Shown here: in pieces, positions 6,572-58,318 of the stretch
How the letters are laid out: each line of letters starts with the position of its first letter
Position numbering within the stretch: the first letter of the stretch is position 1
NCBI RefSeq assembly: GCF_030063445.1
Contig: NZ_JASITD010000027.1
Coordinates: 1 to 64,000, forward strand
From: Hymenobacter sp. H14-R3
Lineage (GTDB): Bacteria > Bacteroidota > Bacteroidia > Cytophagales > Hymenobacteraceae
Direction: 5' to 3'
Length of the DNA stretch: 64,000 nt
Program-made: the position numbers and the translations under genes
Notes under the pieces: model-generated
What the model was told of the DNA's origin: nothing
The model's database searches: none
The model's input: the letters and a program-made list of their open reading frames with translations, nothing else

Positions 6572-6912
6572 TGGTGCAGCGAAGTACCCACCCCACCGAG
6601 GCAGGCAAAAGGACACAAAAACGGCCCCCAGAGCCTGGAAAGGGCTTAAAAGTCCAATCTCACTCTAAACCCGCCCAATGCGCCCCAACGCGCTGCAAAC
6701 GCCGTTTTAGGGCTGATACGACGTTTCAGAGTCTCAGAAGGCGAGGAGATTCCCCCTGCTTGCACTGTCGCCGTCTGGCAATTGCCGGGGGGTGCCTCGG
6801 GGATATCTGCCACACCCCCCGCTTCCTGGGCGAGGGGTCGGGCCAGGGGCGTGGGCAAACAAAAAGCCCCGACCAGGCGGTCGGGGCTTGCGGGTGGCTG
6901 GGTGGTCGAGGA
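6572..6912. other. Intergenic stretch with terminase terminator
   Basis: This 340-base gap separates the terminase operon from the portal operon. The part near 6913 is a terminator (listed separately). A 70-codon minus-strand frame (6646-6858) exists but its composition is not convincing. I see no exact TAnnTTTG element, so the portal operon promoter is not located. Confidence 0.5.
6864..6889 (-). terminator. Intrinsic terminator after terlarge
   Basis: AAGCCCCGACC and GGTCGGGGCTT form an 11-bp perfect stem. Read on the minus strand it ends in TTTTTG, directly downstream of the large terminase stop at 6913. Confidence 0.85.
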
Positions 6913-10548: not shown

Positions 10549-10550
10549 GA

Positions 10551-37578: not shown

Positions 37579-38283
37579 CTACGCCCGGTTGAAGGCCTGG
37601 GCCCAGGCCCGCGTAGGCACTGCCGGTACCGTGGGTAGGGTGGGCTGCGGCTGTTGCTGGGCGCAGAGTTTCAGCAGGCGCTCGTACTTCTTGCGGCCTT
37701 GCTCGATGAGGCCGGGGGCGGCGCTCACCTCGAACTGCCACACCTCGGAGGGGGCTTTTTTCTGCACGCCGATGATGATGAACCGGGCCGCGCCCAGCAG
37801 GTCGGTGTAGAGGGCGGCTTGGCGGTCATAGTCGTACTTCTCAATGGTGGCGCAAAAGCTGGCGTAGTCGGGGCAGCTTGTGGTTTTGAAATCGACTAGC
37901 ACCCGCCGTCCGGTTTTGGGGCTGGTGATGAGTAGGTCGGGGCGCACTTTTACCGTGAGGCCGGTGGCCTCGTGGGTGGCGGTGTGGGTCTGCTCGGCCT
38001 GGCCCCGGTAAAGCAGGTCACGACAAAACCGCTGGCGGCGCACGGCCGCGGCCAGGTCCTCAATCTGCTGCCAGGGCACGCGCTGGGCGGTGCGCTGGTA
38101 TTGGGCGGGCTCCAGCACGGCGGTATGGAAGTGGCTGCCGAAGGCCAGCGCCTGCGGGTTGGGCTGGCGGGTGATGCCTAGGGCGCGGTTTTTAGTTTCG
38201 GTCAGGTCGGTATTGGAAACGAAGGGTAGGGCCCGGTGGGCTTCCTGAGATAGGCCGGGGTGGTGGCGGTGGTCGGTGAACAT
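37579..38283 (-). CDS. PD-(D/E)XK exonuclease, RecE-like, 234 aa
   Basis: The nuclease core reads VKVRPDLLITS (Asp), VLVDFKTTSCPDY (Asp-x-Lys) and YDRQAALYTDLLGA (Gln and Tyr of the RecB-type motif). An upstream TETKNRALGITRQ and ALAFGSHFHTAVLEP fit the exonuclease VIII family used by phages with an annealing protein. Three bases separate it from the SSB-tailed gene. A single-strand annealing partner is expected close by; the 230-aa gene at 38683 is the best candidate by position. Confidence 0.85.
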   Translation of the reverse strand: MFTDHRHHPGLSQEAHRALPFVSNTDLTETKNRALGITRQPNPQALAFGSHFHTAVLEPAQYQRTAQRVPWQQIEDLAAAVRRQRFCRDLLYRGQAEQTHTATHEATGLTVKVRPDLLITSPKTGRRVLVDFKTTSCPDYASFCATIEKYDYDRQAALYTDLLGAARFIIIGVQKKAPSEVWQFEVSAAPGLIEQGRKKYERLLKLCAQQQPQPTLPTVPAVPTRAWAQAFNRA

Positions 38284-44290: not shown

Positions 44291-44731
44291 CTATGAGCTT
44301 ACGTAAGTAAGGGGAAAGAAATGGTTTGCTAGATGGTCAAAATCCTTGTCGGCCGTAGCTAGGGCCGCCCCATAGAGGTTGGCAGTAGCCGCAATCCAGA
44401 GGTCGTTTTTACCCATATGGCGGGCGGTAGTTGCTCGCAAGGGGTTAGGATTCTTCTGCCCAAACTCGTCTATTTGAGCATACGCTTCAAAGAGCGGCTC
44501 GGAATCTACTCGCACCTGCAAGTAGCTATTGAGCAACTCATTCATTTTGTCGGTCTTGGATGGCCCCCAGTTATTGCAACGGGCCAGCACATACATTTCT
44601 GCTCGGGTTACAACACTGATAATATAATCGTATTGCTGAGGAGGATAAGCGGCCTCAAAGACTTGCATGACGGGTTGATGCCCACGCACGTAGGCAAGCA
44701 CAATATTGGTGTCCAAAACGACGTAGGGCAT
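44291..44731 (-). CDS. PIN-domain ribonuclease toxin (VapC-like), 146 aa
   Basis: The acidic catalytic set of PIN domains is complete: Asp7 in YVVLDTNIVLAYVRG, Glu45 in VVTRAEMYVLAR, Asp110 in HMGKNDLWIAATANLYG and Asp128 in ALATADKDFDHL. Such enzymes cut tRNA or rRNA when not blocked by an antitoxin. It starts five bases after the stop of a 329-aa partner gene, far larger than VapB antitoxins (70-90 aa). Both genes have lower GC than the phage genes around them. Confidence 0.9.
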   Translation of the reverse strand: MPYVVLDTNIVLAYVRGHQPVMQVFEAAYPPQQYDYIISVVTRAEMYVLARCNNWGPSKTDKMNELLNSYLQVRVDSEPLFEAYAQIDEFGQKNPNPLRATTARHMGKNDLWIAATANLYGAALATADKDFDHLANHFFPLTYVSS

Positions 44732-44736
44732 GCTAA

Positions 44737-45723
44737 TCAGGCGTTGTCACGTAGTTGTTGGAGCAATTCTTCATACGATTCCTCAATGTTCATCTCTCGT
44801 GCCAACTGACGCACTTTGGCGACATCATTGCCTCTGTACTTCTGCTCTTTGCGCAACTGCTCCAGACTCGGAGCTATGCTCATGGAGCGAGGTAGTTGCT
44901 GGAACAGTGTGAACTGTTGAGGAGTAGCTTCGGTGATGGTTTTGGCTTCAATGGCAGTTATCTGCCCGGCGGCGTTGTAATTAGCCAAGCCCTGTACCAA
45001 GACGTTCTGACCAAAGAACTGGCCTAGGCCCCTTAGCAGGGCGGGTGGAATAAAGATGCGAATTTTGCGGTTGTCGACGATTACTCGTGCGTCGGCGGCG
45101 GAAAACTGCATGGCTTCCAACTGGCCGCTTACTTGTACTCGCTCAGGTGCCTGAATTTGAACGCCAGAGGTTCGTAGCTCGCGCAATACTTTGCGGTTTA
45201 TAACTACCCGGCTAGCCTCCTGCTGGTTGTGGATTAATAAGCTAGCTTGGTCGTTGCCAACAGGAAAGAGGTCGGCCATATTTTGGAGCTGGCGTAGGAT
45301 ACCCCGGTCTACTAGACCACTGCCGGCGGGAGCTACTACCTGGCCTGTGGCTTGTTGAATAGCCTGAATGGTAAGTCCCAGCGCCGATTCGCGGGCTATA
45401 TCACCGGTGCCGAGGGGTTCCTGAAAAAAGCCTTGGTAGGCCCCACCAACTAATACGTCGCCGAGTTGGGGAGCTTCGAGGGCTAATCCAGTTTGACCGT
45501 TGGGTGCAGATTCGAGGGCTGTGTAATTAATGTCGGTAGCCGTTTGTACCCATTCTGGTTGCTTACCGGGCCGGTCGCTGCGGCCTTCAAAATTGAGGCG
45601 TACTACTCCTACAGCTAACTTCAGAAGTTGCTCGCTTAGCGGTCCCACTACCCGCATTGGTAGCTTACCAGGTGCGACTGGGAAATTTTGAAGAATGACG
45701 TGGTATTCGTTGGGTCGCATCAT
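44737..45723 (-). CDS. Large partner of the PIN protein, 328 aa, unknown family
   Basis: From MMRPNEYHVILQNFPVAPGK. The first third is beta-rich; the middle has VIVDNRKIRIFIPPALLRGL and VLVQGLANYNAAGQITAIEA, which may be an OB- or AbrB-like strand set; the C-terminus is helical and charged (LEQLRKEQKYRGNDVAKVRQ, then ESYEELLQQLRDN), the sort of tail that antitoxins use to cover PIN toxins. The open frame extends 19 codons further up; I chose the double ATG at 45720/45723. Antitoxin role is inferred only from gene order and the tail. Confidence 0.55.
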   Translation of the reverse strand: MMRPNEYHVILQNFPVAPGKLPMRVVGPLSEQLLKLAVGVVRLNFEGRSDRPGKQPEWVQTATDINYTALESAPNGQTGLALEAPQLGDVLVGGAYQGFFQEPLGTGDIARESALGLTIQAIQQATGQVVAPAGSGLVDRGILRQLQNMADLFPVGNDQASLLIHNQQEASRVVINRKVLRELRTSGVQIQAPERVQVSGQLEAMQFSAADARVIVDNRKIRIFIPPALLRGLGQFFGQNVLVQGLANYNAAGQITAIEAKTITEATPQQFTLFQQLPRSMSIAPSLEQLRKEQKYRGNDVAKVRQLAREMNIEESYEELLQQLRDNA

Positions 45724-45890
45724 GACAAGGAAACTAGGAGCCAGACCATGAACGTGCGACGAAGAATTTACGCTCCCCAACTTAATGCCTTGGCGCTATT
45801 AAGGCTGGTGAAGTTACGCTGCCTGCGTAGCTACTTAAACCAGCCGGGTAATTGGAGACCCCATTGGTGATTTGAGTAATTGTGCTTTGC

Positions 45891-46943
45891 TTAAGCGGGA
45901 ACTCTGGTTGCCAGGATGGGCTGCTCGGTGAGACGGCCCAGGGCCAAGCTTAGGTATTCGGGGGTGAGGACGCGCTGCTTGCGGGGGTTCCACTGGCCCA
46001 CGGCGTGAATGAGACTGTCGAGGTCCTGGGCTTCGCGGGCATCGAGCAGGTAGTCGACGGTGGCCAGTAGCTCCATGCCCAAGGGCGACTCGAAGCCTTC
46101 GATGAGGTGGGTGAGGTGGGAGACTTGCTGCTTCTGCTTGGGGGTGAGCTGCTGCGCGATGTAGTCGTCAACTTCGGAAAACTTATCCTCCATCAGGGTC
46201 AACTCTTCGAACGGCCGGGCTTCTTTGTAGTGCATGCCACGCAGGTAGGCCCCATCCATGCGCTGCAGGACGTGACTGAGGTTGTCGGCATAAGGGCCGT
46301 ATTGGGCTTTCTGGAAGTTGAGCTTTAGCGGCTCGCCGAGGCGCTGGAGGAAGTAGGCCAGCTTCTGCACTTCGATAAGGGTAAGGCTGTAGCCGAGCGA
46401 CGAATAGGCGCGCATGGCAGCCAGCAGCATGGCCCGGGCGGGCGTCAGCTTTTGAGCCGCGGCTTCGGGCTTGCGCTCCCGCTTGGAAATGGTAGCGGAG
46501 GGCTCGTAGAGCTGGACAGGCACGGCCACATCGGCCATAGCCTGCACAATGAGGGGGCGCACCTGCTGCCAGTCGAGGCCACCGTTGCCGCAGCCGAGGG
46601 GGGGCATGGCTACTGACGTAATGCCGCACTCGGTGATAACGCGCTTCAAGTCCTGTAGGCCGTCGGTGATGTATTCGACGCGGGACTTCTCCTTCCAATG
46701 GCGCTTGGTGGGGAAGTTGATAATGAAGCGCGGGCCGACCAGCTCGTGGGTTTCGGTGACGAACATCTCACCGACGCGGACGCGCTGCTCCTTGCAGGCC
46801 TGGCGGTAGAGGCGGTAGTTGAGGTCGAAGGCTTCCTTGAACTGCAGGGCAATGCCTTTGCCCATGACACCCTCGGTATTGACGGTGTTGATGAGGGCAT
46901 CGGCGGGGGCCTGGAGCAGGTTGCCTTCGGCAGTGGTAATCAT
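45891..46943 (-). CDS. darG: DarG antitoxin: macrodomain ADP-ribosyl glycohydrolase
   Basis: Residues 1-150 are a macrodomain: ITTAEGNLLQAPADALINTV, then EGVMGKGIALQFKEAF, RFIINFPTKRHW and VAMPPLGCGNGGLDW. It removes ADP-ribose from DNA. The C-terminal half (ALNEAR-type helices: SLTLIEVQKLAYFLQRLGEP, KAQYGPYADNLSHVLQRMDG) resembles the Panacea/DUF4065-like domain found in many antitoxins and would bind DarT. Starts at ATG 46943; an ATG six codons upstream is possible. The gene follows darT after 24 bases. Both genes together form a known anti-phage toxin-antitoxin system. Confidence 0.9.
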   Translation of the reverse strand: MITTAEGNLLQAPADALINTVNTEGVMGKGIALQFKEAFDLNYRLYRQACKEQRVRVGEMFVTETHELVGPRFIINFPTKRHWKEKSRVEYITDGLQDLKRVITECGITSVAMPPLGCGNGGLDWQQVRPLIVQAMADVAVPVQLYEPSATISKRERKPEAAAQKLTPARAMLLAAMRAYSSLGYSLTLIEVQKLAYFLQRLGEPLKLNFQKAQYGPYADNLSHVLQRMDGAYLRGMHYKEARPFEELTLMEDKFSEVDDYIAQQLTPKQKQQVSHLTHLIEGFESPLGMELLATVDYLLDAREAQDLDSLIHAVGQWNPRKQRVLTPEYLSLALGRLTEQPILATRVPA

Positions 46944-46967
46944 GGGGAGTGGGGTGGGCAAGGCGGC

Positions 46968-47585
46968 TTAATAGTACCAAGCGGGCCATTCGCGAACGGG
47001 TAGCGCGAGGCCGGCCTGCTGCACAATCTGCTCAACCTGGGTGCGAATATGGGTATTTTGAACAGCAATTCCTACCAAAGCATTCACGGGTACGAACTGG
47101 TGAACGAGAAACTCGGCCTGTTTGTGACGCTGCAAATTAGGGTTTTGCAGGGTCGGCTTCCACTGGTCGGCGTAGATATCAGCCCAAGCTAAGTTGGCTA
47201 GGTCGGTGGGGCTTTGGTGGAAGGAAGTGAGGATTTCAAAGGCGTGGCCGTCGGTGAACACGTAGGGCAGGCCTAGCTGCTGGATGCGCTGCACGTTGCT
47301 GAGCAGGTAGATAATCTCGGACTGGGGCGCGTGCTTGCTGATGCGGTAGAGCATGGGGCTGCGCGGGCCGAGGTAGAAGGGCACGTAGTCGTTGAGAAAA
47401 CCGCCGGGCGGGAGCGTGACGGCGATACGGTTGCGCCGGTCGGTCAGGCTGGCATCGCCGATGTTGCGGTAGGTAATGGTGGCCGGGGTAGGGTGGTTGC
47501 GGCAGAAAATGCCCTGCTGCAGCGTGGCCAGGAGGTTATCGAGGTGGGTTATGCGGTAGATGCGGGTGGGAAGGGGTTGGAGCAT
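46968..47585 (-). CDS. darT: DarT toxin: DNA ADP-ribosyltransferase, 205 aa
   Basis: Family features appear in order: TRIYRITHLDNLLATLQQGI near the N-terminus (NAD-binding His14), PFYLGPRSPMLYRISK (residues 69-84) and the catalytic Glu157 in RHKQAEFLVHQFVPV. DarT transfers ADP-ribose to thymine in single-stranded DNA, stopping replication, and in defence it modifies phage DNA. Length is normal. The toxin gene precedes darG. A TATTTTTG -7 element lies upstream near 47628, but no -33 partner is clear. Confidence 0.92.
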   Translation of the reverse strand: MLQPLPTRIYRITHLDNLLATLQQGIFCRNHPTPATITYRNIGDASLTDRRNRIAVTLPPGGFLNDYVPFYLGPRSPMLYRISKHAPQSEIIYLLSNVQRIQQLGLPYVFTDGHAFEILTSFHQSPTDLANLAWADIYADQWKPTLQNPNLQRHKQAEFLVHQFVPVNALVGIAVQNTHIRTQVEQIVQQAGLALPVREWPAWYY

Positions 47586-47649
47586 AGTTAAGCAAACGCT
47601 GCGGCTATGGCATGGGCAAAAATAAATACTTGTACACGCGTCCGTTAGT

Positions 47650-47768
47650 ATGTTTTTGCAACTCTTTCATAAGAAGCGTGACAGTGCAAGTAGATAGCCG
47701 GTTCCGGCACTACCGTAACCAACGGGGGCAGTCAGCCGAGCGTGATGTCCGAATGGCTGTCCCCGTTG
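47650..47768 (+). repeat. Diverged copy of 44070-44184
   Basis: TTGCAACTCTTTCATAAGAA here matches TTGCAGCTCGTGGACAAGAA at 44073; TAGCCGGTTCCGGCACTACC matches TAGCCGGCTCCTGCACCACC at 44111; a hairpin with ACGGGG...CCCCGT follows in both. The same strand, order and spacing show they are one ancestral sequence. The PIN and DarTG genes lie exactly between the two copies. Confidence 0.8.
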
Positions 47769-47783
47769 CTTTTGTGGATTATT

Positions 47784-50426
47784 TTAGATTTCAGTTGCTG
47801 AAGTAGTAACCGCAAAATCAACATTTAGAGCGTCAAAATGAGCTTGGCCACACTGGATTTTAGCCCATTCTGACCCGCGAAGCTTCATTTCCTCCTTATT
47901 CGATTTAGTCTCACGCACCAAATACAGTTTTTCGTCTTCCTCTTTCACAATGGCCCAGTCAGGGTTGTATGTGCCGATGGGGGTTTCGATTTTAAACCAA
48001 GCCGGCAGTTTCACGAATAGCTTGATATCAGTGCGTTCGCTCAGGGCTTTGGCAAAGCTGCGCTCCACTTCAGAATCAAACAGCACCGCATCGTAGATAC
48101 TATGGTTTACGGGCAGCAGGCTTGTGAGAGCACCACTCAATTCGCGCTGCCCGAAAAGCAGCATTTCGTAGTCCTGGTTTTCAATCCGCTCGTACTTGAT
48201 GCCGGCTACCATCAGTTCCTTCAACTCGGTATCGATGGCCTTGTGGGCCTGTTCCAAAAACTGCTGCGGGTTGCGTACAGCATCGTCGAGGCGGCCCGAC
48301 TGAATCAGAATTTCGGCCAGCGTCTTGCGGGTCAACTCGGTTTTGGCTTGTAGGTAGGCCAACAAGTCGGGCATGGGCACTGCGGCCTGGTAACCGGCAC
48401 TGGCTTCGCGTACACTCAGCAATTGTGTGTCAACACCTGCACCGCTAATTTTTATCTCTGTTTTTTCGATGTTGATGCGGGCGGCGGTTACTTTGGGGCC
48501 TGCGGCCAGACGCTTGGCTGCCTGCCGAATCAAATCGGCGGTGCTGTACTGCACGGCGTAGCGCGTTTGGGGCTTGATGCGGTTCCAGAGTTCCAAAAAA
48601 TCGGCGTTGAACTGCCAGCCGGGCACCAGACGGACGGTTTCAACCTCGCGCTTGTTCACGATGCGGCCCGTGAAATTTATGCCAAAGTCGTCGGCCATTT
48701 CCTGCTGCAGCTGCCGCGCAAACTCGTCGTAGTGCTCGTTGGCAACTACGGTCAGCTTGTTGATGCTTTCGTCGAAACACCGCTCACCGGTAGCCAGTAC
48801 CGGCAGGCGCAATCCACGGCCTATTTCCTGCCGCTTTTTAACCTCCGATTTCGTTTCGTTCAGCGTGCAAATCTGGAACACGTTCGGATTGTCCCAGCCC
48901 TCGCGCAGGGCCGAGTGGCTGAAAATGAAACGTAGCGGCACTTCCGGCGACAACAATTCTTCTTTGGCCTGCATGATGAGGCGGTAGGCTTCATCGTCGG
49001 CCGCGGTATCGCCACGGGTGTCCTTGGGCACGTTTTTATAGGCTGAAAAATAGCCATTGTGGACCTTGTCTACAGGCGGTAGGGCTAGGCTTTTGTACTT
49101 CGGTAGTGCGGCTAGCTCCTCGTAGGCACTGATAAACCAGTAACGGATTTTACCATCTTCGGCCGCGTAGTTGGCCACCCGGTCGATAAAGAAAAGCGAC
49201 AGTACTTTGAGCTGTGCCGCCGCACCTAGGGCCGCAGGTGGCAGTATCCGAGCCACTTGTAACTCTTTGTCGAGGTGCTCCTTTACGGTTTCCCGAATCT
49301 GCACACGCATCACGTCGTCGGTGCGGCCACCGTGACTTTGGCCCACAAATAGCTGTAACCCATTTGTGAAGCTCACGAACCCATCGGCGGCGTTAATTTC
49401 ATCGATGATGTAGCCGTTGTAGTTTTCGCGCCCGTTGGTCTTTTCCAGCAAATCAATGCCCCCCGCGCCAATCGTGACGGGCTTGCGCTTGGGGCCAGCT
49501 TTGTCGTTCACATCGAGCAGCAGCTTGGCCGATACCTGCGTTTTGGTGGCGCTGATACCCTGTACCTGAATGTAGGGCTGGTTGAAATCGGGGTCGTCGA
49601 GGACGGAGCTGACCTGGATGCGCTTCACCAGTTTCAGGTCGTAGGCACGCACCGGGTCGAGCTTGTACACCAGATTGTAGGCGTGGCGGTGCGTGGCCGA
49701 GTAACGCAGCGTGCACAGCGGATTTAGGCTGGCAATGGCTTGCCGGGCCGGGCCGCTCTCCATATTCTGCGGCTCGTCAAGGATGACAATGGGTTGGGAT
49801 GCTTGCACAAACTCAATCGGCCGGCGGCCCGAAAGTTGGTCCTTCTCCTGATAAATGACGTTGTTGGCTTGCTTGTTAAACGAGTCAATGTTCATCACCA
49901 TAATTTGCAGGGCCGTGCTTTGGGCAAACTGCCGAAGCCGCGCAAACTGTCGCGAATCATACACCCACCGGTCGTAGGCTACGTTGTCGTAGAGGGTGCG
50001 AAAATGCGTTTCCATCAGCCCCAGGCTTGATAACACACCCTCCCGAATAGCTACGCTGGGCACTACAATAATGAACTTGGCAAAGCCGTAGCGCTGGTAC
50101 AGCTCAAAAATGCTTCGCAAATACACGTAGGTTTTGCCGGTGCCAGTTTCCATCTCTACCGAAAAGTTGCGTCCGTCCAAGACTTCACTTTCGGGTAGCT
50201 CGTTAGCTGCTTGCACCTGGCGCAGGTTGGCCAGCAGCGCCGCATCGTCAAGAGCTAGGTGGTTGGCCAGCCCTAACTCGCCAATCAACTCGGTTGGGCT
50301 GGCTAGGCTGAATGAAAAAGCGCCCTCGCGCAAAGGCTGGCCCTCGAACAGGTTAACCACCGCGTCAATGGCGTGGCGTTGGTAAGGCTGGTTGCTGTCG
50401 AATTTGATTTTCATAGCTCCCAACAT
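47784..50426 (-). CDS. res: Type III restriction endonuclease subunit Res, 880 aa
   Basis: An SF2 helicase/translocase with VEMETGTGKTYVYLRSIFEL (Walker A, near residue 92), VILDEPQNMES (DEAD-like, near 216) and SALREGWDNPNVFQIC followed by EIGRGLRLPV (motifs V and VI). The C-terminal nuclease shows GTYNPDWAIVKEED and YLVRETKSN, the PD-(D/E)XK pattern of Res subunits. With Mod it cuts DNA between two head-to-head unmodified sites. ATG 50426 overlaps the upstream stop by one base (TGATG); a start four codons later (MKIKFDSNQPYQ) fits homologues equally well. Confidence 0.94.
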   Translation of the reverse strand: MLGAMKIKFDSNQPYQRHAIDAVVNLFEGQPLREGAFSFSLASPTELIGELGLANHLALDDAALLANLRQVQAANELPESEVLDGRNFSVEMETGTGKTYVYLRSIFELYQRYGFAKFIIVVPSVAIREGVLSSLGLMETHFRTLYDNVAYDRWVYDSRQFARLRQFAQSTALQIMVMNIDSFNKQANNVIYQEKDQLSGRRPIEFVQASQPIVILDEPQNMESGPARQAIASLNPLCTLRYSATHRHAYNLVYKLDPVRAYDLKLVKRIQVSSVLDDPDFNQPYIQVQGISATKTQVSAKLLLDVNDKAGPKRKPVTIGAGGIDLLEKTNGRENYNGYIIDEINAADGFVSFTNGLQLFVGQSHGGRTDDVMRVQIRETVKEHLDKELQVARILPPAALGAAAQLKVLSLFFIDRVANYAAEDGKIRYWFISAYEELAALPKYKSLALPPVDKVHNGYFSAYKNVPKDTRGDTAADDEAYRLIMQAKEELLSPEVPLRFIFSHSALREGWDNPNVFQICTLNETKSEVKKRQEIGRGLRLPVLATGERCFDESINKLTVVANEHYDEFARQLQQEMADDFGINFTGRIVNKREVETVRLVPGWQFNADFLELWNRIKPQTRYAVQYSTADLIRQAAKRLAAGPKVTAARINIEKTEIKISGAGVDTQLLSVREASAGYQAAVPMPDLLAYLQAKTELTRKTLAEILIQSGRLDDAVRNPQQFLEQAHKAIDTELKELMVAGIKYERIENQDYEMLLFGQRELSGALTSLLPVNHSIYDAVLFDSEVERSFAKALSERTDIKLFVKLPAWFKIETPIGTYNPDWAIVKEEDEKLYLVRETKSNKEEMKLRGSEWAKIQCGQAHFDALNVDFAVTTSATEI

Positions 50427-51967
50427 CAGTTAGCGTGTTCCTCTACCTCGGGCTTCTTCATTGCCAGCCAATCATTTATCTCAGCTATGTATGTTGGCCA
50501 AGCTGGAGATTTTGCAGCCACTGAAATCATCATATCTACACCTCGCAGGAAATCAACGCCCAGACGCTCTACTACTTTGTTTACAAAATTGTGTTTATCT
50601 CTCACAACACTCACAGCTTGTGCAGCGCGTATGATTTCATCATCCCCTGCATTGCTGCCAGTGAGAAGAGATTTTACCATCTCATGGATTGCCTTTTCGG
50701 GGTTTACACCGTTAGAAGGACGCAATTGAATGATTCGGTCAATTGCTTTTTGCTGCCTTTCCGCAATATCGATTTCAGTTCCGTTGAGGACTTTGGAAAC
50801 TCCGCGCCTGCGTGCTGCGGCATCGCAGTTGACGTCTCCATCCAGAACCAAGAGGTGATTGGTAAGCTTTGGCTCCTTATTCATGACAAGGGCGGCGGCC
50901 AAGGTATAACAATTCTCAGCCGAGCCGTAAGTCAATACCTCAACGTGGCGGAGCATTCCTAAGTCATTGGCAACCTTCGTGATAATTGCTTTAGCAATAA
51001 TGTCTTCACCCGATATTCGGAGTGGGCGAGTAGAAATGCCAGTTAATCGAAAAAGAGCATCAGGCTTGGTTGTGTCGAATACTAAGGTTTGATAAGGAGG
51101 TTGCTGACTGCGGTATAAATGTCGAACCGCAATAATGTCGGTAAGGGCAGCTATTTGTTCGCGGTGAGTAGTAAAAATAATTTGGGTGTCTTTGTCTTGT
51201 GCGATTTTATGCAGTTCCGCCAAAAAACGATTAAGGGCCTCCGTGTGAAACAACAAGTCAATCTCGTCGATTAGAATAAGGGCGTTTGGACCAGCTGCCA
51301 AGACCTTTTCCAAGATGCGAATCGCACGCTGCTCACCGGCACCCATTGCCAGAGACGAATAAGACGTTTGTTCATAAGTAAGGCCAATCAAAGGCCTCTC
51401 TCGTCCGGCTTCGTGACTATTCAAACTGGTGTAGCTCCGATTGAAAACGGTGCTGAGAATTTCTAGTATTTTTTTTGCTGTCTTCGTTCCAACGACGCTG
51501 GTTTGAAACGGTACTTGCTCACCGCCACCGAGAGTCTCAATGTCAGGCGAAGCGGTTGAAACGCCAATAAAATAGGTTTCTCGCGGCGGTCTACTGGCTG
51601 GTTGAGGAGTCCAGCCCGCTGTCTTCTTCCGAATTTTAAGTACCGCACGAGAAGGTTTAGAAGCCCCCTCTTTAGTAAACTTATGAATAATTTCAGCGCT
51701 AGTGCCTGACCATGTCGCGTGCGGAGTACCAGCAAAAAAACTTGAAAAAAGACGAGTTTCTCCTTGCTCCTGACCAGTATTCCCTGCCTTTACATACGAC
51801 TGATTGAAAGACGCAGCCAGCAAATGTAATAAAGTGGATTTTCCACAGCCATTAGGCCCAAGAAGGGCAGTCAGATGTTTAGTGGGGTCAAATACGATAG
51901 TGACATCACGCAGATTTTTAAGTTGAGTAATCTTAATCTGCTCGATTACCTGTTGCGTTACTTTCAT
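50426..51967 (-). CDS. ABC-type ATPase fused to Toprim-like nuclease domain, 513 aa
   Basis: N-terminal ATPase of the RecF/SMC-like kind: ALLGPNGCGKSTLLHLLA (Walker A at 37-45), signature-like SLAMGAGEQRAIRIL (near 205) and NALILIDEIDLLFH (Walker B near 232). The last 170 residues look like a Toprim or DUF4435-type domain, with a first Glu in LTYGSAENCYTLA (near 350) and HLLVLDGDVNCD (near 374). ATPase plus Toprim is the layout of OLD-family and PARIS-type defence proteins. It sits between mod (3-base gap) and res (1-base overlap) in one operon, which ordinary type III systems do not have. GC is lower than in mod. Confidence 0.8.
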   Translation of the reverse strand: MKVTQQVIEQIKITQLKNLRDVTIVFDPTKHLTALLGPNGCGKSTLLHLLAASFNQSYVKAGNTGQEQGETRLFSSFFAGTPHATWSGTSAEIIHKFTKEGASKPSRAVLKIRKKTAGWTPQPASRPPRETYFIGVSTASPDIETLGGGEQVPFQTSVVGTKTAKKILEILSTVFNRSYTSLNSHEAGRERPLIGLTYEQTSYSSLAMGAGEQRAIRILEKVLAAGPNALILIDEIDLLFHTEALNRFLAELHKIAQDKDTQIIFTTHREQIAALTDIIAVRHLYRSQQPPYQTLVFDTTKPDALFRLTGISTRPLRISGEDIIAKAIITKVANDLGMLRHVEVLTYGSAENCYTLAAALVMNKEPKLTNHLLVLDGDVNCDAAARRRGVSKVLNGTEIDIAERQQKAIDRIIQLRPSNGVNPEKAIHEMVKSLLTGSNAGDDEIIRAAQAVSVVRDKHNFVNKVVERLGVDFLRGVDMMISVAAKSPAWPTYIAEINDWLAMKKPEVEEHAN

Positions 51968-51970
51968 CTC

Positions 51971-54052
51971 CTATACCGTCTTAAAAGTTACCCCTGCCGT
52001 CTGGGCTTCCAGCACGGCGTTTGTTTTTAGCGCATCGTTGCCGTCGAACGACGCATCGAGGCATAGCACCAGGCGCGGCGCGGGCCGGCCAGTTTTGGGG
52101 GCCGGGGCGAACAACTCGCGCAGAGCTTCGCGGGTGAGGTGCGGCGCCAGGCAGATAACCACCGAGCCATCGGCCACGGCTACGGCGGGCAGCCCGGCCG
52201 CTTTAAATCCCTGCATGGTGCTGGACAGCGGCAGGCCGGTTTTGAGCATCAGCTCGTAGCGCACATCATCTTCGCTGCGGTCGGGCATCAGGTGGTCGGC
52301 ATAAAGGCTCAGTTGCTTGGCCAGGTTAGCACTGTCAGAGCCAGCAGCTTCATCCGGTTGCCAGAGCTTGAAATTGCTGGTGTCGTAGTGGAAGGCCCGA
52401 AAGCCAAGGTCGGTAGGTGGCTGGGGGTACAGGGCCAGTTTGCTTGCGTCGTTATTCTGGAGTACCGCCCCCACCCGGCGTACCCGTTCGCGGGTGATGT
52501 GCGCGATGGTCGGGTACTTGGTGTGGGAAGTAGCTTCGTCGAGCTGAACTAGCAAAAAACGACGGGTGCCCCCGTCTTCCTGGTTCAGGCGCAGCACGGC
52601 TTCGGCAGTGGTGCCCGACCCACCAAAAAAGTCGAGCACGAGCCCCGTGGTGTCGCTACCCATTACGTACTGAAACAGCTTGGCCAGCTCTTCGTGGTCT
52701 TTGGGGTTGTCGAAGAGCTTACCGCCCAGCAGTTTTCGCAGGGCTTTCACGGCTACCTGCGACTGCTTGTAGAAATAGCTGCCCCGAACCTGGGTGGCGA
52801 AGCCTTCGGTCAGGTCATCGTCATCAGTAGCGTCGTTGGTTTCGTCGTCGGAGCCAGTAGCTTCTTCGGCCAGCAACTCGGCCGCGACGGGCCGGATATG
52901 CGCCTTGCGGAAAGGCGGCTGGGTGTGGTCGTCGCGAAACACGACCAGCCCTGCCTGAATCTGCCGCTCCATTTCTTCTGGCTTAGCATAAATCCAGCCT
53001 CGCTCCGGGACGGCGCAGGGCAGCCCGGTTATGGGATGAATCACATCGTAGCGGGGGCCATTGCCGCCGGGCCACGAAATGTCGCGGTCGCGCCAGGGGC
53101 CGTGTTCGTCCACCCGCTTGTAGCGGCTCCACTTCTTGGCCGGGTGGCTGCGGGGCAAGGCACTGTACCAGGCGCTCATGCCTTGTTCGATGGCGGCATC
53201 GTCGGGGCCGTGGGCGGCCCGCAGTGCGGTGTATTTATCCCAAATGTCGCGGGCACCAGGTTTTTCTTCGCGCCACACCGTGTTTTTCTCGCGTAGAAAC
53301 TGTTGCGAGCGGGCATAAACCAAGAGATATTCGTGGCCGACCGAAATCAGCTTGGCATCGTTTTTCCGGCCTTTTTCCCAAACCATGCAGGCCACAAAAT
53401 TCTCCTCCCCGAACACCTCGTCCATCAACAGGCGCAGGTTGTTAACTTCATGGTCGTCGATGCTCACCAAAATTACTCCGTCCTCTTTCATGAGGTTCCG
53501 CGCCAGAAATAGGCGGGGGTACATCATGTTGAGCCAGTTGGAATGGTAGCGGCCGTTGGTTTCTTTATTAGTGGTAGTGGCGGTGTTTTCGTCGCTGAGC
53601 TGGCCGGTAGCCCGCAAGTAATCGTCCTTTTCTTCATAGAAGTTATCGGGATAGATGAACTCGTTGCCGGTGTTGTAGGGCGGGTCGATGTAAATCAGCT
53701 TTACCTGCGCATGATAGGCCTTTTGCAGTAGTTTGAGGACTTTGAGGTTGTCGCCCTCGATGATGAGGTTTTCGGTGGTATCCCAGTTCACGCTTTCGTC
53801 GCGCTGAGGGCGCAGGGTGCCCCGGCTAGGATTTTGCACGTTGCGGAAGGCTTCGCGTTTGCCAGCCCAGTTCAGGCCGTAGCGTTCGGCATTGTCGTCG
53901 AGGTGGGCACCTAGGGCCGCTTGCAACTTGACAAAATCGACGTGGCCTTCGCTGAACACCTGAGGAACTGCTTCGCGCAGTTGGTCGAGCAGGACGGCAG
54001 TGAGGTCGGTAGAAATGAGGGGCAAGCGCGTGGACTTGGATACAGAAGGCAT
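51971..54052 (-). CDS. mod: Type III DNA methyltransferase subunit Mod, 693 aa
   Basis: Beta-class N6-adenine methyltransferase: catalytic IYIDPPYNTGNEF (near residue 124) precedes the SAM motif LDFFGGSGTTAEAV (near 472), with a long target-recognition region between them as in Mod subunits. The N-terminal ENLIIEGDNLKVLKLLQKAY is also typical. Start at ATG 54052 (MPSVSKSTRLPLI), below a good promoter; the longer frame from 54181 would cross that promoter and is rejected. It modifies host DNA and directs Res. The recognition sequence cannot be predicted. Confidence 0.94.
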   Translation of the reverse strand: MPSVSKSTRLPLISTDLTAVLLDQLREAVPQVFSEGHVDFVKLQAALGAHLDDNAERYGLNWAGKREAFRNVQNPSRGTLRPQRDESVNWDTTENLIIEGDNLKVLKLLQKAYHAQVKLIYIDPPYNTGNEFIYPDNFYEEKDDYLRATGQLSDENTATTTNKETNGRYHSNWLNMMYPRLFLARNLMKEDGVILVSIDDHEVNNLRLLMDEVFGEENFVACMVWEKGRKNDAKLISVGHEYLLVYARSQQFLREKNTVWREEKPGARDIWDKYTALRAAHGPDDAAIEQGMSAWYSALPRSHPAKKWSRYKRVDEHGPWRDRDISWPGGNGPRYDVIHPITGLPCAVPERGWIYAKPEEMERQIQAGLVVFRDDHTQPPFRKAHIRPVAAELLAEEATGSDDETNDATDDDDLTEGFATQVRGSYFYKQSQVAVKALRKLLGGKLFDNPKDHEELAKLFQYVMGSDTTGLVLDFFGGSGTTAEAVLRLNQEDGGTRRFLLVQLDEATSHTKYPTIAHITRERVRRVGAVLQNNDASKLALYPQPPTDLGFRAFHYDTSNFKLWQPDEAAGSDSANLAKQLSLYADHLMPDRSEDDVRYELMLKTGLPLSSTMQGFKAAGLPAVAVADGSVVICLAPHLTREALRELFAPAPKTGRPAPRLVLCLDASFDGNDALKTNAVLEAQTAGVTFKTV

Positions 54053-54102
54053 AGAAGAAACCAAAAAGCGCCTCAAAAAGGATAGTGAAAATCTTTGGAC
54101 AA

Positions 54103-54132
54103 CGAAAGTAGTCTTTGATAAGCGCCAAGCAA
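54103..54132 (-). promoter_or_regulatory. Promoter of the mod-ATPase-res operon
   Basis: On the minus strand TTG (54130-54132), a 19-base spacer and TACTTTCG (54103-54110) match the Bacteroidota -33/-7 pattern. The mod ATG lies about 50 bases downstream. Confidence 0.6.
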
Positions 54133-54213
54133 GAGTGACGCTGGAAGGTTTACCATTGCTACGGCACAACCTGAGTTTCACTAGATATAGTGGTGCGGCA
54201 AGTGTTCACTGAG

Positions 54214-54600
54214 CTAATGGGGCTGAAGATGAAGGCCCCGGCCCTCGAATGACTGTTGGAACTGGGCAAAATCGTAGGCGACGAAGGCCACGCCGCCGGC
54301 TTGCTTTAGCTCGTTGAGAAACAGCTTCTGGTCGTCGCGCAGGGTGTCGCGGCCGGCCTTCACTTCGACGCCCACGAATACCCCGTCAGCGAGGCGAAAG
54401 CCGATGATATCGGGCACGCCGTTGCAGCCCTGGGGGTTCTTGCGCCAGCGGCCGGTGGCCTGGTCGTAGATGCCGCTGGTGTTCTGGCGCCACACTTTGA
54501 AGCCGTGGCGGGTGAGGTAGGCAATGATGGCGCTGGTTATCTCGCCGGCCTTCATCGTGCCAAAATCGAGGGGTAGCTGGTCGTGCTTTTGGGCAATCAT
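54214..54600 (-). CDS. VRR-NUC domain nuclease, 128 aa
   Basis: A virus-type replication-repair nuclease: GFKVWRQNTSGIYDQA, then the core NGVPDIIGFRLADGVFVGVE followed by VKAGRDTL (PD...ExK). Common in phage replication blocks, where it is thought to act on branched DNA. Eight bases separate it from the upstream small gene. It belongs to the replication operon, not to the restriction system next to it. Confidence 0.9.
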   Translation of the reverse strand: MIAQKHDQLPLDFGTMKAGEITSAIIAYLTRHGFKVWRQNTSGIYDQATGRWRKNPQGCNGVPDIIGFRLADGVFVGVEVKAGRDTLRDDQKLFLNELKQAGGVAFVAYDFAQFQQSFEGRGLHLQPH

Positions 54601-54608
54601 GGGCGGGG

Positions 54609-54884
54609 CTAGTGGTCGGCGTAGAGGCCCCGGCCCGGCCGCGGCTGGGGGGCGGGCAGCTGGTTGGGAGCGAATAGCTGGCCCTGCACGAGCGAGGGCC
54701 GCACCTGATACAGGTTTTCGAGGTCGGCCAGCACGTCGCGGATTACCTGCTCGCGGTGGTCGGCGGTGCGCTGGCTAAGGCGGTTGGTGCGGACCCAATC
54801 GGGGTACACCCGTTCGCGGGTTTCCAGCTCGCGCCGTAGCTCGGTGAGGCGTTGCTCGGGAGTGGTGGGTTGCGGGTGGGGCAT
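54609..54884 (-). CDS. Small phage protein, 91 aa
   Basis: MPHPQPTTPEQRLTELRREL with RVYPDWVRTNRLSQRTADHR and a helix VIRDVLADLENLYQVRPSL. I recall similar short proteins in many phage replication operons, with no known function. Pro-rich tail. Confidence 0.6.
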   Translation of the reverse strand: MPHPQPTTPEQRLTELRRELETRERVYPDWVRTNRLSQRTADHREQVIRDVLADLENLYQVRPSLVQGQLFAPNQLPAPQPRPGRGLYADH

Positions 54885-54888
54885 GGCG

Positions 54889-55629
54889 CTAGGGGGTAGG
54901 GCGGCGGTATTTCTCCAGGATGGCGCGGTCTTCGGCCCGGTTGCGCTGGTCGATGCGGCGCTGGGCCACGGGGCTGGGCTGCCAGTCGGGGCGGGGCTTG
55001 CGCTGGGTAGCCTTGCGGATGTTTGCCCGCTGAGCCTGCGCTTCTTCAGGCGTGAGGAGGCCGCGCCGGGCCTTGCCGTTGGTGATGGTCAGCGCGGTGC
55101 GGAGCGTTTCGGCGTTGGGGTGGCCGGGCGGAATCTGCTGGGCCACGTTGTCGAGCATCCGGGGAGCGGCTTCGCCCAACAGCCGCACGTCCTGGGCCTG
55201 CTGGCCGGCCCCGGCGGCTTTCTGGTCGAGGTGGCGGTTTTCGAGGTAGGCAGCTTTGCGGGTGAAATACTCCTGGATGAGGCGGTACAACGTGCTCACA
55301 TCGAGCGACTGGTAAAACTTGGTGCCACTGGTGCGGGCCTCCTTCAGTGCCAGAATGATGTCTTTCAGGCTATCGTGGGTGTAGGTGTGGGCCAGGTTAT
55401 CGGCCAGCTCCAGGATGTCGGCCGCGTCGGGCTTGTCGGGCACGCGCAGCGAGTCTACAAAGGCCCGCAGCACTACCACCAGCAGCTTCACCAGGACTGT
55501 TTCGCCTAGGCGGTGGCGCAGCTGAAACAGCTTGGGCGCGGCGGCGGCCTGGGCCACGGTGAGGCCCACCGACACCTCGGCCAGCAGGGCGCGGGCCTCG
55601 GGGCAGGGGGTAGCGGCCAGCTCACGCAT
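54889..55629 (-). CDS. DUF6633-like replication-module protein, 246 aa
   Basis: I use ATG 55629 (MRELAATPCPEARALLAEVS), eight bases inside the upstream stop; the open frame goes back to 55743 over a Pro/Ser-rich stretch. The core ADILELADNLAHTYTHDSLK, DIILALKEARTSGTKFYQSL, DVSTLYRLIQEYFTRKAAYL has the spacing I associate with DUF6633 proteins that follow phage initiators. A helicase-loader-like role is possible but unproven. Confidence 0.65.
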   Translation of the reverse strand: MRELAATPCPEARALLAEVSVGLTVAQAAAAPKLFQLRHRLGETVLVKLLVVVLRAFVDSLRVPDKPDAADILELADNLAHTYTHDSLKDIILALKEARTSGTKFYQSLDVSTLYRLIQEYFTRKAAYLENRHLDQKAAGAGQQAQDVRLLGEAAPRMLDNVAQQIPPGHPNAETLRTALTITNGKARRGLLTPEEAQAQRANIRKATQRKPRPDWQPSPVAQRRIDQRNRAEDRAILEKYRRPTP

Positions 55630-56686
55630 CGTACTTGGAGCGGTAGCCAGTTGCAGCAGGCCGTGTTCCGGGGTCGGGGCTGGGCTGGCCGGGCTGGTAG
55701 GGCTGGGTACCGGGAGCGAGTTTGAGGCGGTTATCGGCAGCATCGTTGAGCATGAATCTGCGGGCGGTGGCTACCCAATCTTTTCGGCGGGGCGGAAGGC
55801 CGGTTTGCTTGTCTCTCCAAGTGTCGATGAGCTGGTGGTAGTGGCGCAGGTCGGTCAGCGCGCCATCGGTGCCCGCGAAGGCGGCGGTGAAGGCGGCGAA
55901 GTCGTAGATGGCCGACTCGCGGAACAGCACTTCGGGTAGGGGCGGCGGCCGGCGCGGCTCGTTGGCGCGGGCGGTGGCCGCTGGGCGGGTGGCCTCGGCC
56001 GGTACCCCTTCACCCAAATGCTTGACGCGCATTTTCTTTGGCGCAACTTTCTTTTTTGGGGCTGCGCCTGCCCCCGAGGAGTCCCTCGGCTGGCAATCGT
56101 CGGGCGAATCTTCGACCAGTCCTGAAAGCCCTTCGTTGGCGGGCGAAGCCTCCCCCATTTTTTTTTGAGGAGCGGCGGCGGGGCCGTTTACTTCTACAAG
56201 AGGTTTACTCTTATTACTTCGTTTATCATTTATAAGGAGTACTTGGGTCACTTCTGCCCCCGATGCGGCGGCTACCTGGGATACTTCCGGCCCCGGTGCG
56301 GGGTGGGTACCGGGGGCAGAGGTGGCCTGGGTAGACTGGTTTTCACCGGGGGTACTTGTGCCCCCGGTAGGGTCTTTTACCGGGGGCAGTTCTGCCCCAA
56401 GTAAATCCGACATGAAACAGCGGCTGGGCTGGTACTTCGACTTGCTGGGCTGGTAGGCCAGGAGGCCCCAGTTTTCGAGGTCGTAGAGCGTGGCCCGGTA
56501 GGTCTTGATGCTGCCGATGTGGGCGGCGCGCATCAGGTGGTTGTGGTCGAGGGCCAGCGACTCGGGGAAGCGGCCGGCGTTCCACTCAAAAAACAGCGCC
56601 CAGTACAAGCTGACGTGAAAGGGCGTGGCGGCGGGCTGCCGGGTCAGCTGGTCGTGGGCGGCGCGGGTGTGCTGGATAAAATTCAT
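55622..56686 (-). CDS. Phage replication initiator-like protein, 354 aa
   Basis: The N-terminal 95 residues resemble a winged helix (PFHVSLYWALFFEWNAGRFP; IGSIKTYRATLYDLENWGLL; YQPSKSKYQPSRCF). A long low-complexity linker (about 100-255) follows, then a C-terminal helical domain (DFAAFTAAFAGTDGALTDLR; YHQLIDTWRDKQTGLPPRRK; DWVATARRFMLND) as in DnaD/phage O-type proteins. It should recognise the origin of element B and load the helicase. First gene of the replication block proper. Confidence 0.75.
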   Translation of the reverse strand: MNFIQHTRAAHDQLTRQPAATPFHVSLYWALFFEWNAGRFPESLALDHNHLMRAAHIGSIKTYRATLYDLENWGLLAYQPSKSKYQPSRCFMSDLLGAELPPVKDPTGGTSTPGENQSTQATSAPGTHPAPGPEVSQVAAASGAEVTQVLLINDKRSNKSKPLVEVNGPAAAPQKKMGEASPANEGLSGLVEDSPDDCQPRDSSGAGAAPKKKVAPKKMRVKHLGEGVPAEATRPAATARANEPRRPPPLPEVLFRESAIYDFAAFTAAFAGTDGALTDLRHYHQLIDTWRDKQTGLPPRRKDWVATARRFMLNDAADNRLKLAPGTQPYQPGQPSPDPGTRPAATGYRSKYDA

Positions 56687-56756
56687 GGGTGCCCGGCCTG
56701 CGTGGTGTCAGTAGTCTGATAGATTGGGTGGGGTAGGCGGCCGGTTGGCGGGCGGC

Positions 56757-57044
56757 TCATGCGGCGGCCCGGTGGTAGCGCCGGGGGTAGGCATCGAGCG
56801 CGGACTGTTTGAAGCCCCACTCTTTCTCGTTGAGGCGCACGCCCTTGATGCGGTTTTTGCGGCGGGCCCGGCGTAGCGCCTCGGCCGACAGGCCGATGTA
56901 GGCAGCGGCCTGCTGCACGTTCAGCACCTCGTCGGGCGGGGTGGCGTGGGCTAGGGCGCGGGCGGTTTCGGCCTGCTCCAGGCGGTCAAGGCGGGCAGCG
57001 AGCTGCCGCCACTCCGTTTCGGGAATGATGACGACGTGCTGCAT
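56757..57044 (-). CDS. Helix-turn-helix protein (excisionase / MerR-like), 95 aa
   Basis: A helical lead (EWRQLAARLDRLEQAETARA) and an HTH_17-type domain: VLNVQQAAAYIGLSAEALRR, then KNRIKGVRLNEKEWGFKQSA. Such small proteins act as excisionases or early regulators. Two bases separate it from the gene above. Position near the repressor supports either role. Confidence 0.75.
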   Translation of the reverse strand: MQHVVIIPETEWRQLAARLDRLEQAETARALAHATPPDEVLNVQQAAAYIGLSAEALRRARRKNRIKGVRLNEKEWGFKQSALDAYPRRYHRAAA

Positions 57045-57046
57045 GG

Positions 57047-57301
57047 CTACCCGGCGATTTTGGCGCTGCGCTCCTTCACTTGCTCGCGGCGCTTGTGCTC
57101 GGCCTCGGCGGCGGTCAGGAAGGCTTCTACCAGCTCCTTCCGGCCGCTGCGGCCGTTGACGACCTGGTACATAGTGGAGCGGCTGACGGTGATTCCCTGC
57201 TCGGAAAGGGCGGCAATGGCATCCTTAACGACTGACTGGCCAGGACCTAGCCGTTCGAGCACCTTTTGCAATTCGGTGGGCTCTTTTGTATTTCTGTCCA
57301 T
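57047..57301 (-). CDS. Cro-like small regulator, 84 aa
   Basis: Starts MDRNTKEPTELQKVLERLGP at 57301, with an HTH-like stretch VKDAIAALSEQGITVSRSTM followed by YQVVNGRSGRKELVEAFLTA. First gene of the early operon and divergent from the S24 repressor, the usual place of Cro. The longer frame from 57406 would cover the operator region and is rejected. Confidence 0.65.
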   Translation of the reverse strand: MDRNTKEPTELQKVLERLGPGQSVVKDAIAALSEQGITVSRSTMYQVVNGRSGRKELVEAFLTAAEAEHKRREQVKERSAKIAG

Positions 57302-57412
57302 GTTCGTGTGTATTCTAGTTGTAGTTGCGTACATTTGCTTTGGCGAGCTAGCCAAGACTGTACAAACATACACGCACCAAGGCGTAAGTATGGCACCTGA
57401 ATACACTTTTTT
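57302..57412. promoter_or_regulatory. Divergent promoter / operator region of element B
   Basis: TACATTTG (57330-57337, plus strand) and TATGTTTG (57363-57370, minus strand) both fit TAnnTTTG and point toward the repressor and the early operon. GTGTATTC (57307) and GAATACAC (57400) form an outer inverted pair, a likely repressor site. Confidence 0.6.
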
Positions 57413-58318
57413 ATGGAAGCCACTGCCACTGTAACGGACCGCATAAAATCGCTATTGGGTCATTATAGCTTGAATGCCAATAGTGTAACCCAGAAATTGG
57501 GGTATTCTACTACGAGCAAAATGTACAAAATTTTGCAGGGAGCAGAGCCAAGTTTTCCTACTCTGGTCGATTTCTTGAAAACCTTTCCGGCCGTGTCGAG
57601 CGACTGGCTTCTATTGGGTCAGGGGGCGATGCTGCGTGAGGGCGCGAGAGCGGCCTCCGCCGGAGACGAGGTTGCTTCTACCAAAGTGGTCGCGCCGGCG
57701 AAGTATGAGACGAGTCACAGCGACGCGCTTAAAGTGCTGACGGTGACTGTGGACAAGAACGGGGAAGAAAATACGGTGCTGTTTCCGCGTGAGGCGCAGG
57801 CCGGTTACCCTTCCCGAATGAATGATGCGGTGTACCTCCAGGATATGACGCCCTACCACATCCCTGGCTTCGAGGGTGGCACTTACCGGGCTTTTGAGGT
57901 GGACGGGCTGAGTATGTCGCCCACCTTCGGCAACCGCGATATCGTGGTGTGCAGCTTCGTAGAACGTTGGCACCTGCTTAAGCCCTGGGAGTGCTACGTG
58001 GTAGTGACGCAGGAAAACCTGCTGCTCAAGCGCATTAGCGACGTTATCACGGACCGGCGCGGGACGGTGGAGCTGTTCTCCGACAATCCTGGCTACGACC
58101 CCTACCGGCTGCCGGTATCGGACCTGGTGCAGCTGTGGCAGGTGCGCGGCTACCTCTCCACGGCCGTGCCGCCCCGGCCCGACCGGCAAGGGCACGTTAT
58201 GGAGCGCCTGCAGGAAGTCATCGAGTTGCTGGGCCACGACTACCACGAGGTACGGCGGTATTTGGAAGAAAGCGCCCAGGCCGCGGCTTCGCAGCAGAAG
58301 GCCGCGCTATCCTCCTAA
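57413..58318 (+). CDS. Phage repressor with S24 (LexA-like) autopeptidase, 301 aa
   Basis: An N-terminal HTH (SLNANSVTQKLGYSTTSKMY; ILQGAEPSFPTLVDFLKTFP) is followed by an S24 domain with the nucleophile in FEVDGLSMSPTFGNRDIVV (Ser167) and the general-base Lys in NLLLKRISD (near 206). It should keep element B silent and cleave itself when DNA is damaged. The C-terminal 35 residues are an extra helix. It lies just inside the right end of the element. Confidence 0.9.
   Translation: MEATATVTDRIKSLLGHYSLNANSVTQKLGYSTTSKMYKILQGAEPSFPTLVDFLKTFPAVSSDWLLLGQGAMLREGARAASAGDEVASTKVVAPAKYETSHSDALKVLTVTVDKNGEENTVLFPREAQAGYPSRMNDAVYLQDMTPYHIPGFEGGTYRAFEVDGLSMSPTFGNRDIVVCSFVERWHLLKPWECYVVVTQENLLLKRISDVITDRRGTVELFSDNPGYDPYRLPVSDLVQLWQVRGYLSTAVPPRPDRQGHVMERLQEVIELLGHDYHEVRRYLEESAQAAASQQKAALSS

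Follow-up and report, generated by a model that had tools for sequence, protein, structure and literature searches.

A putative IbfA-type ATPase-Toprim defense gene between mod and res of a type III restriction operon of Hymenobacter

Introduction

What is a gene for an ATPase-Toprim protein doing between the two subunit genes of a type III restriction operon? This question is raised by a stretch of 64,000 nucleotides from Hymenobacter sp. H14-R3 (assembly GCF_030063445.1, contig NZ_JASITD010000027.1, positions 1 to 64,000; hereafter the window), in which a gene that we refer to as the middle gene lies between mod and res. We consider it probable that the middle gene encodes an IbfA-type, OLD-like ATPase-Toprim effector that occupies the mod-res junction as an exchangeable passenger defense cassette and that would act independently of restriction upon infection.

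New defense systems have been discovered through genes nested in operons of type I restriction, BREX and Hma. Our samples suggest that the mod-res junction of type III systems may, in some lineages, be a slot of this sort; if so, it would be a place to seek further defense or toxin modules. In addition, whether nested defenses depend on their host operon or merely ride with it would become testable, with different residents that can be compared between similar flanks.

Results

The minus strand of the window carries all three genes (positions from the list of open reading frames, ORFs): mod at 51971..54052, the middle gene at 50426..51967 and res at 47784..50426. The mod product, a type III DNA methyltransferase, contains DPPY and FGGSG motifs and matched N6_N4_Mtase (E 5.9e-24) and the PADLOC model MTase_III (E 2e-181). 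The type III restriction subunit encoded by res (880 amino acids, aa), which has an SF2 helicase part and a C-terminal endonuclease domain, contains the motifs GTGKT and DEPQ and matched PADLOC REase_III (E 3.8e-276) and, at its C-terminus, Pfam RE_endonuc (E 1.4e-37). Judged by these motifs and models, Mod and Res are clear type III restriction-modification subunits that are encoded together. The stop codon of mod (TAG) is followed by GAG and then by the ATG of the middle gene, which leaves a 3-base spacer, and the stop codon of the middle gene (TGA) overlaps the ATG of res by one base. An earlier sequence-only reading of this DNA had described the same order, with an ABC-type ATPase bearing a C-terminal Toprim-like region between the two junctions, and the coordinates and junction letters confirm it. 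A scan of 45000-58000 for sigma-70-type promoters gave 6 sites (4.7 expected), and the "good promoter" that this reading had placed at 54103-54132 was not one of them. A longer mod frame is possible from an alternative GTG start at 54181. The match to Mod begins at residues 39-65 of this GTG frame in 17 of 20 relatives (at 22, 26 and 118 in the others), and the ATG at 54052, which is residue 44 of the GTG frame, fits the relatives better than the GTG, short of proof.

The N-terminal part of the 513-aa middle protein is an ABC ATPase (Pfam AAA_15, E 4.4e-16, above the cut-off) that has kept a Walker A motif (GPNGCGKST), an ABC-signature-like motif (MGAGEQ) and a Walker B motif (LILIDE). Among 128 PADLOC families the best model was HEC-04 (E 4.6e-28, 96.1 bits, residues 6-410), followed more weakly by AriA (E 2e-18, 65.4 bits) and the retron ATPase-Toprim I-B model (E 6.5e-17). 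A tblastn search with the middle protein matched 869 of 72,556 plasmid records, 835 of them covering at least 80% of the query; the best matches showed 37-38% identity over 97%, and lower-ranked ones dropped to about 25%. The matched plasmids were mostly from Escherichia and Salmonella, and 722 were typed as conjugative. Three relatives that were scanned (plasmid locus L005 and loci L002 and L149) likewise had HEC-04 as their best PADLOC model. In both L005 and L006 the IbfA-like plasmid gene has a ProQ-family gene next to it, and the IbfA-like gene of L006 measures 1557 bases. IbfA of pUA1135 is described in the available text of PMC12111858 as a 518-aa ATPase plus TOPRIM protein, a HEC-04 homologue encoded near a ProQ gene, that lowers phage productivity, or interferes with phage multiplication. 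On account of the best model, the ProQ neighbor and the length of the L006 gene, we took the best plasmid relatives to be IbfA, a comparison made with the published description. By its full-length likeness to such phage-interference proteins of enteric plasmids, the middle protein belongs to a known kind. The phage collection contained no match to the middle protein.

We then turned to the C-terminal region (residues 311-513, 50429..51037). Residues E321, D322 and D376-G377-D378 were invariant in two alignments, one of 7 and one of 11 sequences, each including the window protein. An AlphaFold2 model of the whole chain, made from the 11 sequences, reached a predicted local distance difference test score (pLDDT) of 76.4 and a predicted template modeling score (pTM) of 0.56; its top Foldseek match was the OLD nuclease 6p74 (E 1.6e-13), at a template modeling (TM) score of just 0.30. 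When residues 311-513 were modeled separately, the scores were 87.6 and 0.86, and the five Foldseek matches under E 0.001 were all C-terminal regions of OLD proteins (TM 0.43-0.49). In a VIA comparison with the same domain model, OLD entries held ranks 1-5 (Z 8.0-8.9, 131-173 aligned residues, root-mean-square deviation [rmsd] 3.3-5.2), PARIS entry 8ux9 chain A came next at a Z of 7.5, in a range (under 8) that chance can produce (147 aligned, rmsd 4.1), and the rows that followed were unrelated (Z 5.5 and less). With the full chain, the VIA alignments covered the ATPase part only, with Z up to 18.8 to ABC heads. Since a profile search of PDB sequences with the C-terminal domain returned only two chance-level rows, the Toprim call rests on the predicted fold and the conserved residues, both of which support it.

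The ATPase-plus-Toprim call of the sequence-only reading is borne out by the match to OLD Toprim domains and by residues E321, D376 and D378. No Toprim or DUF4435 model, the profile match to which that reading had pointed, appeared among the best 25 of 31 Pfam families for the window proteins (E up to 1). Its further proposal of a compact single-chain PARIS-like unit holds in part: the predicted Toprim domain resembles 8ux9 chain A, which is probably AriB because chain B is listed as AriA, but the family label "single-chain PARIS" was rejected, as HEC-04 outscores AriA. A fused AriAB model exists in PADLOC, and it was not among the best 25 of 128 families for the window proteins. Membership in Hma (helicase, m5C methyltransferase and ATPase, according to the available text of PMC8565338) was rejected as well, the families listed for the three proteins including no Hma model.

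Relatives of the middle gene are rare in the host lineage and were found away from type III genes. Among 204 genomes of the window's family one, the window's own, has the gene; it was met in 4 of 395 genomes of a phylum sample at E 1e-15 and, by profile search, in 8 of 390 genomes of an order sample at E 1e-25, the window's genome being included in each count. A scan of genome contigs with the single middle protein found no relative, and with the alignment it gave at least 6 weak loci, which were not used. We inspected the neighborhoods of 45 relatives, near or distant: 10 in genomes, 5 in plasmids and 30 in viral contigs, several of which matched over a short ATPase stretch only. A relative of the window's Mod or Res (blastp E 1e-5) was present in none of the 45, other restriction types not being covered by the search. 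The gene tables of the five plasmids, which may be incomplete, list no restriction gene; one lists a short BrxA-family protein. As a separate observation, the start of a distant relative in L058 (26%; 6354-10935) overlaps the end of an upstream same-strand 1012-aa ORF that by eye is partly UvrD-helicase-like with a nuclease-type end, and is possibly Gabija-like.

To place the window junction in context, we compared the mod-res gaps of loci picked by similarity to the window Res; two genera supply many of these loci, and the window stands outside the counts. The phylum set (n = 80) comprised all 20 non-window genomes of a first search, 42 regions from 40 of the 55 non-window genomes of a second, and 3 further genomes plus 15 regions from 14 genomes, chosen because they held a Res start and sequence upstream of it. 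Loci that had no same-strand upstream mod were dropped (9 of 80 phylum loci and 5 of 64 viral loci), leaving 71 and 59. A gap was scored as occupied when it exceeded 200 bases and held a co-directional ORF of at least 100 aa; the longest opposite ORF was listed alongside. Extra genes were present in 48 of the 71 phylum gaps, and 23 were empty (occupied by batch: window's family 5/18; phylum sample 32/36; third batch 11/17). Plasmid gaps were occupied at 3 of 14 loci, one of which is an IS1-interrupted mod, and viral gaps at 12 of 59. Whether a filled gap is usual or exceptional therefore depends on the group. Where gaps were occupied (n = 51, phylum and plasmid), ORFs covered a median of 98% of the gap, 41 fillings started within 20 bases of the mod end, 37 ended within 20 bases of the res start, and 24 overlapped res by 1 or 4 bases. 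Among full-length Res proteins, the closest one found came from a Hydrogenophilus plasmid (identity 58% by tblastn and 60% in alignment); there res starts 2 bases after mod, for which reason the middle gene was probably inserted into a pre-existing mod-res pair.

A defense- or toxin-like family was found in 35 of the 48 occupied phylum slots, with names carried from tested representatives by cluster (blastp E 1e-6), L126 counted via a fragment only, and Schlafen-AlbA and DUF1016 counted as putative only. The residents include DUF1016/YhcG nucleases (PDC-S02, E 1.8e-133), SoFic (E 6.5e-120), a PDC-M59A protein (viral locus L223 holds its Fic/Doc-type partner PDC-M59B), Ppl-like PHP-ATPase proteins, SIR2 with HerA, DarT, AbiD/Abi_2, GmrSD and Schlafen AlbA_2. 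The remaining 13 slots (L038, L039, L042, L055, L111, L114, L116, L117, L118, L196, L197, L198 and L199) hold only genes that received no defense or toxin name, and are candidate material for new modules. Transposase-like or unrecognized ORFs occupy L116, L197 and L198 (by eye), and L188 carries IS1. Outside the phylum, a Rhizobium plasmid has DUF262 between mod and res, and the slot gene of a Phaeobacter plasmid, annotated "RNA-binding domain-containing protein", clusters with the AlbA_2 group; the 5 of 12 viral fillings scanned gave DUF1016, Fic/Doc, RhuM twice, and a PLD-like match below the cut-off.

Four loci (L109, L119, L132 and L203) hold a pair of genes, an ABC ATPase and a DUF4276 protein, between mod and res. 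The ATPases scanned were HEC-01A (L119, E 1.6e-140; L203, E 1.8e-141; L132, E 2.3e-159), and that of L109 was assigned because it clusters with the L119 and L203 proteins. For L132, automatic mapping of the slot showed the DUF4276 gene only, and the ATPase frame (5271-6479) was found by hand. The DUF4276 proteins scanned matched HEC-01B (L109, E 3.9e-73; L132, E 3.5e-68), and those of L119 and L203 cluster with that of L109. DUF4276 is, we presume, related to Toprim; an hhalign comparison of the middle protein's Toprim domain with DUF4276 gave a probability of 0.65% (E 0.088), and so did not show the relation. That the three-gene order might be unique to this genome, a possibility weighed in the sequence-only reading, holds, within the material searched, for the IbfA-type gene itself, given the absence of Mod and Res relatives from its 45 neighborhoods, but not for the wider pattern, given these four loci. 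As a general statement, a mod-X-res order unique to this genome was rejected, as many relatives have genes in the gap.

Similar flanks may enclose different contents. In L110 and L112 the last 300 bases of mod are 82% and the first 300 bases of res 83% identical, and the slots give no blastn match (E 1e-5); the same is true of the insides of L201/L204 (flanks 82% and 82%) and L114/L203 (82% and 80%). L109 and L120 are filled and their relatives L215 and L209 are empty (flanks 72-78%). These come from 16 flank pairs that were picked by hand for differing contents, 3 of them with one empty slot; among the 13 with both slots filled, 9 had no blastn match inside and 4 shared a part (L121/L122, L123/L125, L121/L126 and L143/L148). 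Many close Res pairs carry the same slot content. Exchange by way of the conserved ends of mod and res would be expected to produce such a pattern, and may have done so. In L126, the start and end of a 150-aa slot ORF (644-1096) match the start and end of the two-gene slot of L121, which gives it the look of a deletion product.

In a further group of type III loci (L046, L070, L071 and L182-L188), mod is preceded by a DUF4391 gene and by a gene of helicase-related or SNF2 type; L047 and L048 resemble them by gene size only. The mod-res gap of this group is mostly empty, with an AlbA-type insert in L184 and the IS1 in L188. The reverse order, res then mod, was seen in L052 and L054, from two genomes of the window's family.

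The surroundings of the window operon include phage-type genes. Matches to a terminase large subunit (6913-8631), an integrase (27044-28351), an exonuclease VIII-like protein (37579-38283) and a CI-like repressor (57413-58318) lie in the window, for which reason the operon seems to sit in a prophage or phage-like element. Together with a VRR-NUC match at 54214-54600, they make up the 5 of 10 window proteins scanned that matched PHROGs. Directly downstream of res on the minus strand is a DarTG pair recognized by family models: the DarT toxin (46968..47585), 198 bases from res and outside the mod-res gap, and the DarG antitoxin (45891..46961). In L202 a DarTG pair lies within the mod-res slot (697-2355). 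A PIN-domain VapC-like protein is encoded at 44291-44731, two genes past DarG, and an unrecognized 347-aa ORF (44737-45780) separates the two.

Discussion

The explanation that we favor is that the middle gene was inserted as a passenger defense cassette at the mod-res junction of a type III operon in a prophage-like region. The data directly show the gene order, the family, the predicted fold, the conservation of catalytic-type residues, and that many other modules use this junction. We infer a nuclease activity, its trigger and its substrate. Read most economically, the middle protein would be an OLD-like effector: paired ABC heads would bind ATP and gate the Toprim nuclease, the ABC ATPase part would sense a phage-induced state, infection would in this way release and switch on the Toprim part, and the activated Toprim part would cut nucleic acid and abort or dampen the infection. 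The middle protein is probably translated together with Mod and Res, yet would most likely form an independent second layer beside restriction, for which the slot would provide co-expression and carriage on an operon not easily lost.

Several observations weigh against this explanation. The available text of PMC12111858 ties IbfA to altered early transcription, so that ATPase and nuclease action are presumed activities of the family. At position 320, just ahead of the conserved E-D, the middle protein has G; almost every aligned relative has V there, and the others T or L. The gap is usually empty in the window's family (13/18), in plasmids (11/14) and in viral contigs (47/59), and the occupancy counts are for mod-res gaps alone. 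An IbfA-type gene between mod and res was met only once, in the window, among the material searched. Lastly, the operon-tight junctions and the four occupants with an ATPase and DUF4276 also fit a functional tie to restriction.

Such a tie is the core of the strongest alternative, in which the middle protein is a guard that watches over Mod/Res or senses its inhibition and, once restriction is blocked, sets off abortive infection, in the manner of PrrC with a type IC enzyme or PARIS with Ocr. The gene is embedded in a restriction operon, of type III and not type I, with a 3-base spacer and a one-base overlap as its junctions; the ABC ATPase and DUF4276 pairs, with a possible Toprim-type partner, recur in the slot at four loci; and the Toprim model matches the PARIS entry at Z 7.5. 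PrrC and PARIS are reviewed as guardians of restriction-modification in the available text of PMC12707154, where PrrC, which sits within a type IC locus, reacts when its enzyme is inhibited. On the other side, none of the 45 neighborhoods of relatives had a relative of the window's Mod or Res (other restriction types not searched), which makes a general guard role doubtful, and no restriction gene is named in the five plasmid gene tables, which may have omissions. Fic, DarTG, SIR2-HerA and other modules that need no restriction trigger use the slot as well, and because the gap holds so many mechanistically unrelated modules we favor an exchangeable passenger over a dedicated restriction guard. 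In addition, the available text of PMC10149784 reports that Ocr, ArdA and ArdB had no effect on type III EcoPI, the one enzyme tested, so that a back-up logic of the Ocr type fits type III poorly. According to the part of the PARIS work available, an Ocr mutant that escapes sensing by PARIS still blocks EcoKI; sensing is thus decoupled from antirestriction, and PARIS senses the protein and not failed restriction. A guard role for the middle gene is possible, and we rate it as unlikely. Somewhat less likely still is a broader version, in which the mod-res junction serves this type III lineage as a slot dedicated to exchangeable guards. Its residents, the middle protein and the ATPase and DUF4276 pairs among them, would be tied to the state of Mod/Res, would fire when restriction fails in response to a trigger other than Ocr, and would replace one another by recombination within the conserved ends of mod and res.

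A neutral or decaying insertion, in which the junction merely tolerates inserts and the gene has no present function, would fit the transposase-like or unrecognized ORFs of L116, L197 and L198 and the IS1 of L188. It is improbable for the window, where a 513-codon frame is open, the Walker and Toprim residues are conserved and the junctions are operon-tight, and for a slot with a defense- or toxin-like family in 35 of 48 occupied cases. Least probable of all is an accessory subunit, a structural or catalytic partner altering type III cleavage or specificity, which would suit the tight operon position and the extra conserved helicase-like ATPase gene that some type III systems have upstream of mod (available text of PMC8259958), but peptides of that extra ATPase were absent from partially purified Eco86II (same text), mod-res pairs with an empty gap are common (23/71 in the phylum, 11/14 in plasmids), and the middle-gene family is found away from type III genes.

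The passenger cassette that we favor can be set beside known systems. IbfA/HEC-04 proteins share with the window protein the order of two domains, and a similar length, with 37-38% identity over 97% to the plasmid proteins taken here as IbfA; plasmid IbfA stands alone, whereas the window gene lies within a type III mod-res operon, and HEC-04 was named as an Hma-embedded candidate (available text of PMC12111858). OLD-family nucleases (6p74, 6njx and 6nk8) likewise combine an ABC ATPase with a C-terminal Toprim domain and gave the best fold matches for both the whole chain and the domain; identity in these matches is just 10-16%, and the activity of the window protein is predicted only. PARIS (AriA/AriB) also joins an ABC ATPase to a Toprim-type domain, and AriA models and structures were matched, but its scores are below that of HEC-04, and the window protein is one chain, with no separate AriB gene. 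HEC-01A/HEC-01B resembles the window arrangement in placing an ABC ATPase in the mod-res slot, followed by DUF4276, and differs from it in being two genes and not one chain.

Defense genes between the genes of another defense system are familiar from other hosts, as the available text of PMC12707154 also reports. In the parts of the cited papers available, TgvAB and RloF lie within type I loci (PMC11411939), OLD-Toprim modules within BREX loci (PMC12839542), and HEC genes are embedded in Hma (PMC12111858, PMC11411939). The literature searched, as far as its text was available, contained no report of defense genes in a type III mod-res junction; a preprint on embedded defenses (Payne et al., 2024) may cover type III. 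The window gene shares with PrrC, RloF, TgvAB and DarTG2 in type I loci, HEC in Hma, and OLD-Toprim in BREX its position as a defense-type gene between the genes of another system, but its host is neither type I, Hma nor BREX: it lies in a type III mod-res junction, one that has many alternative residents.

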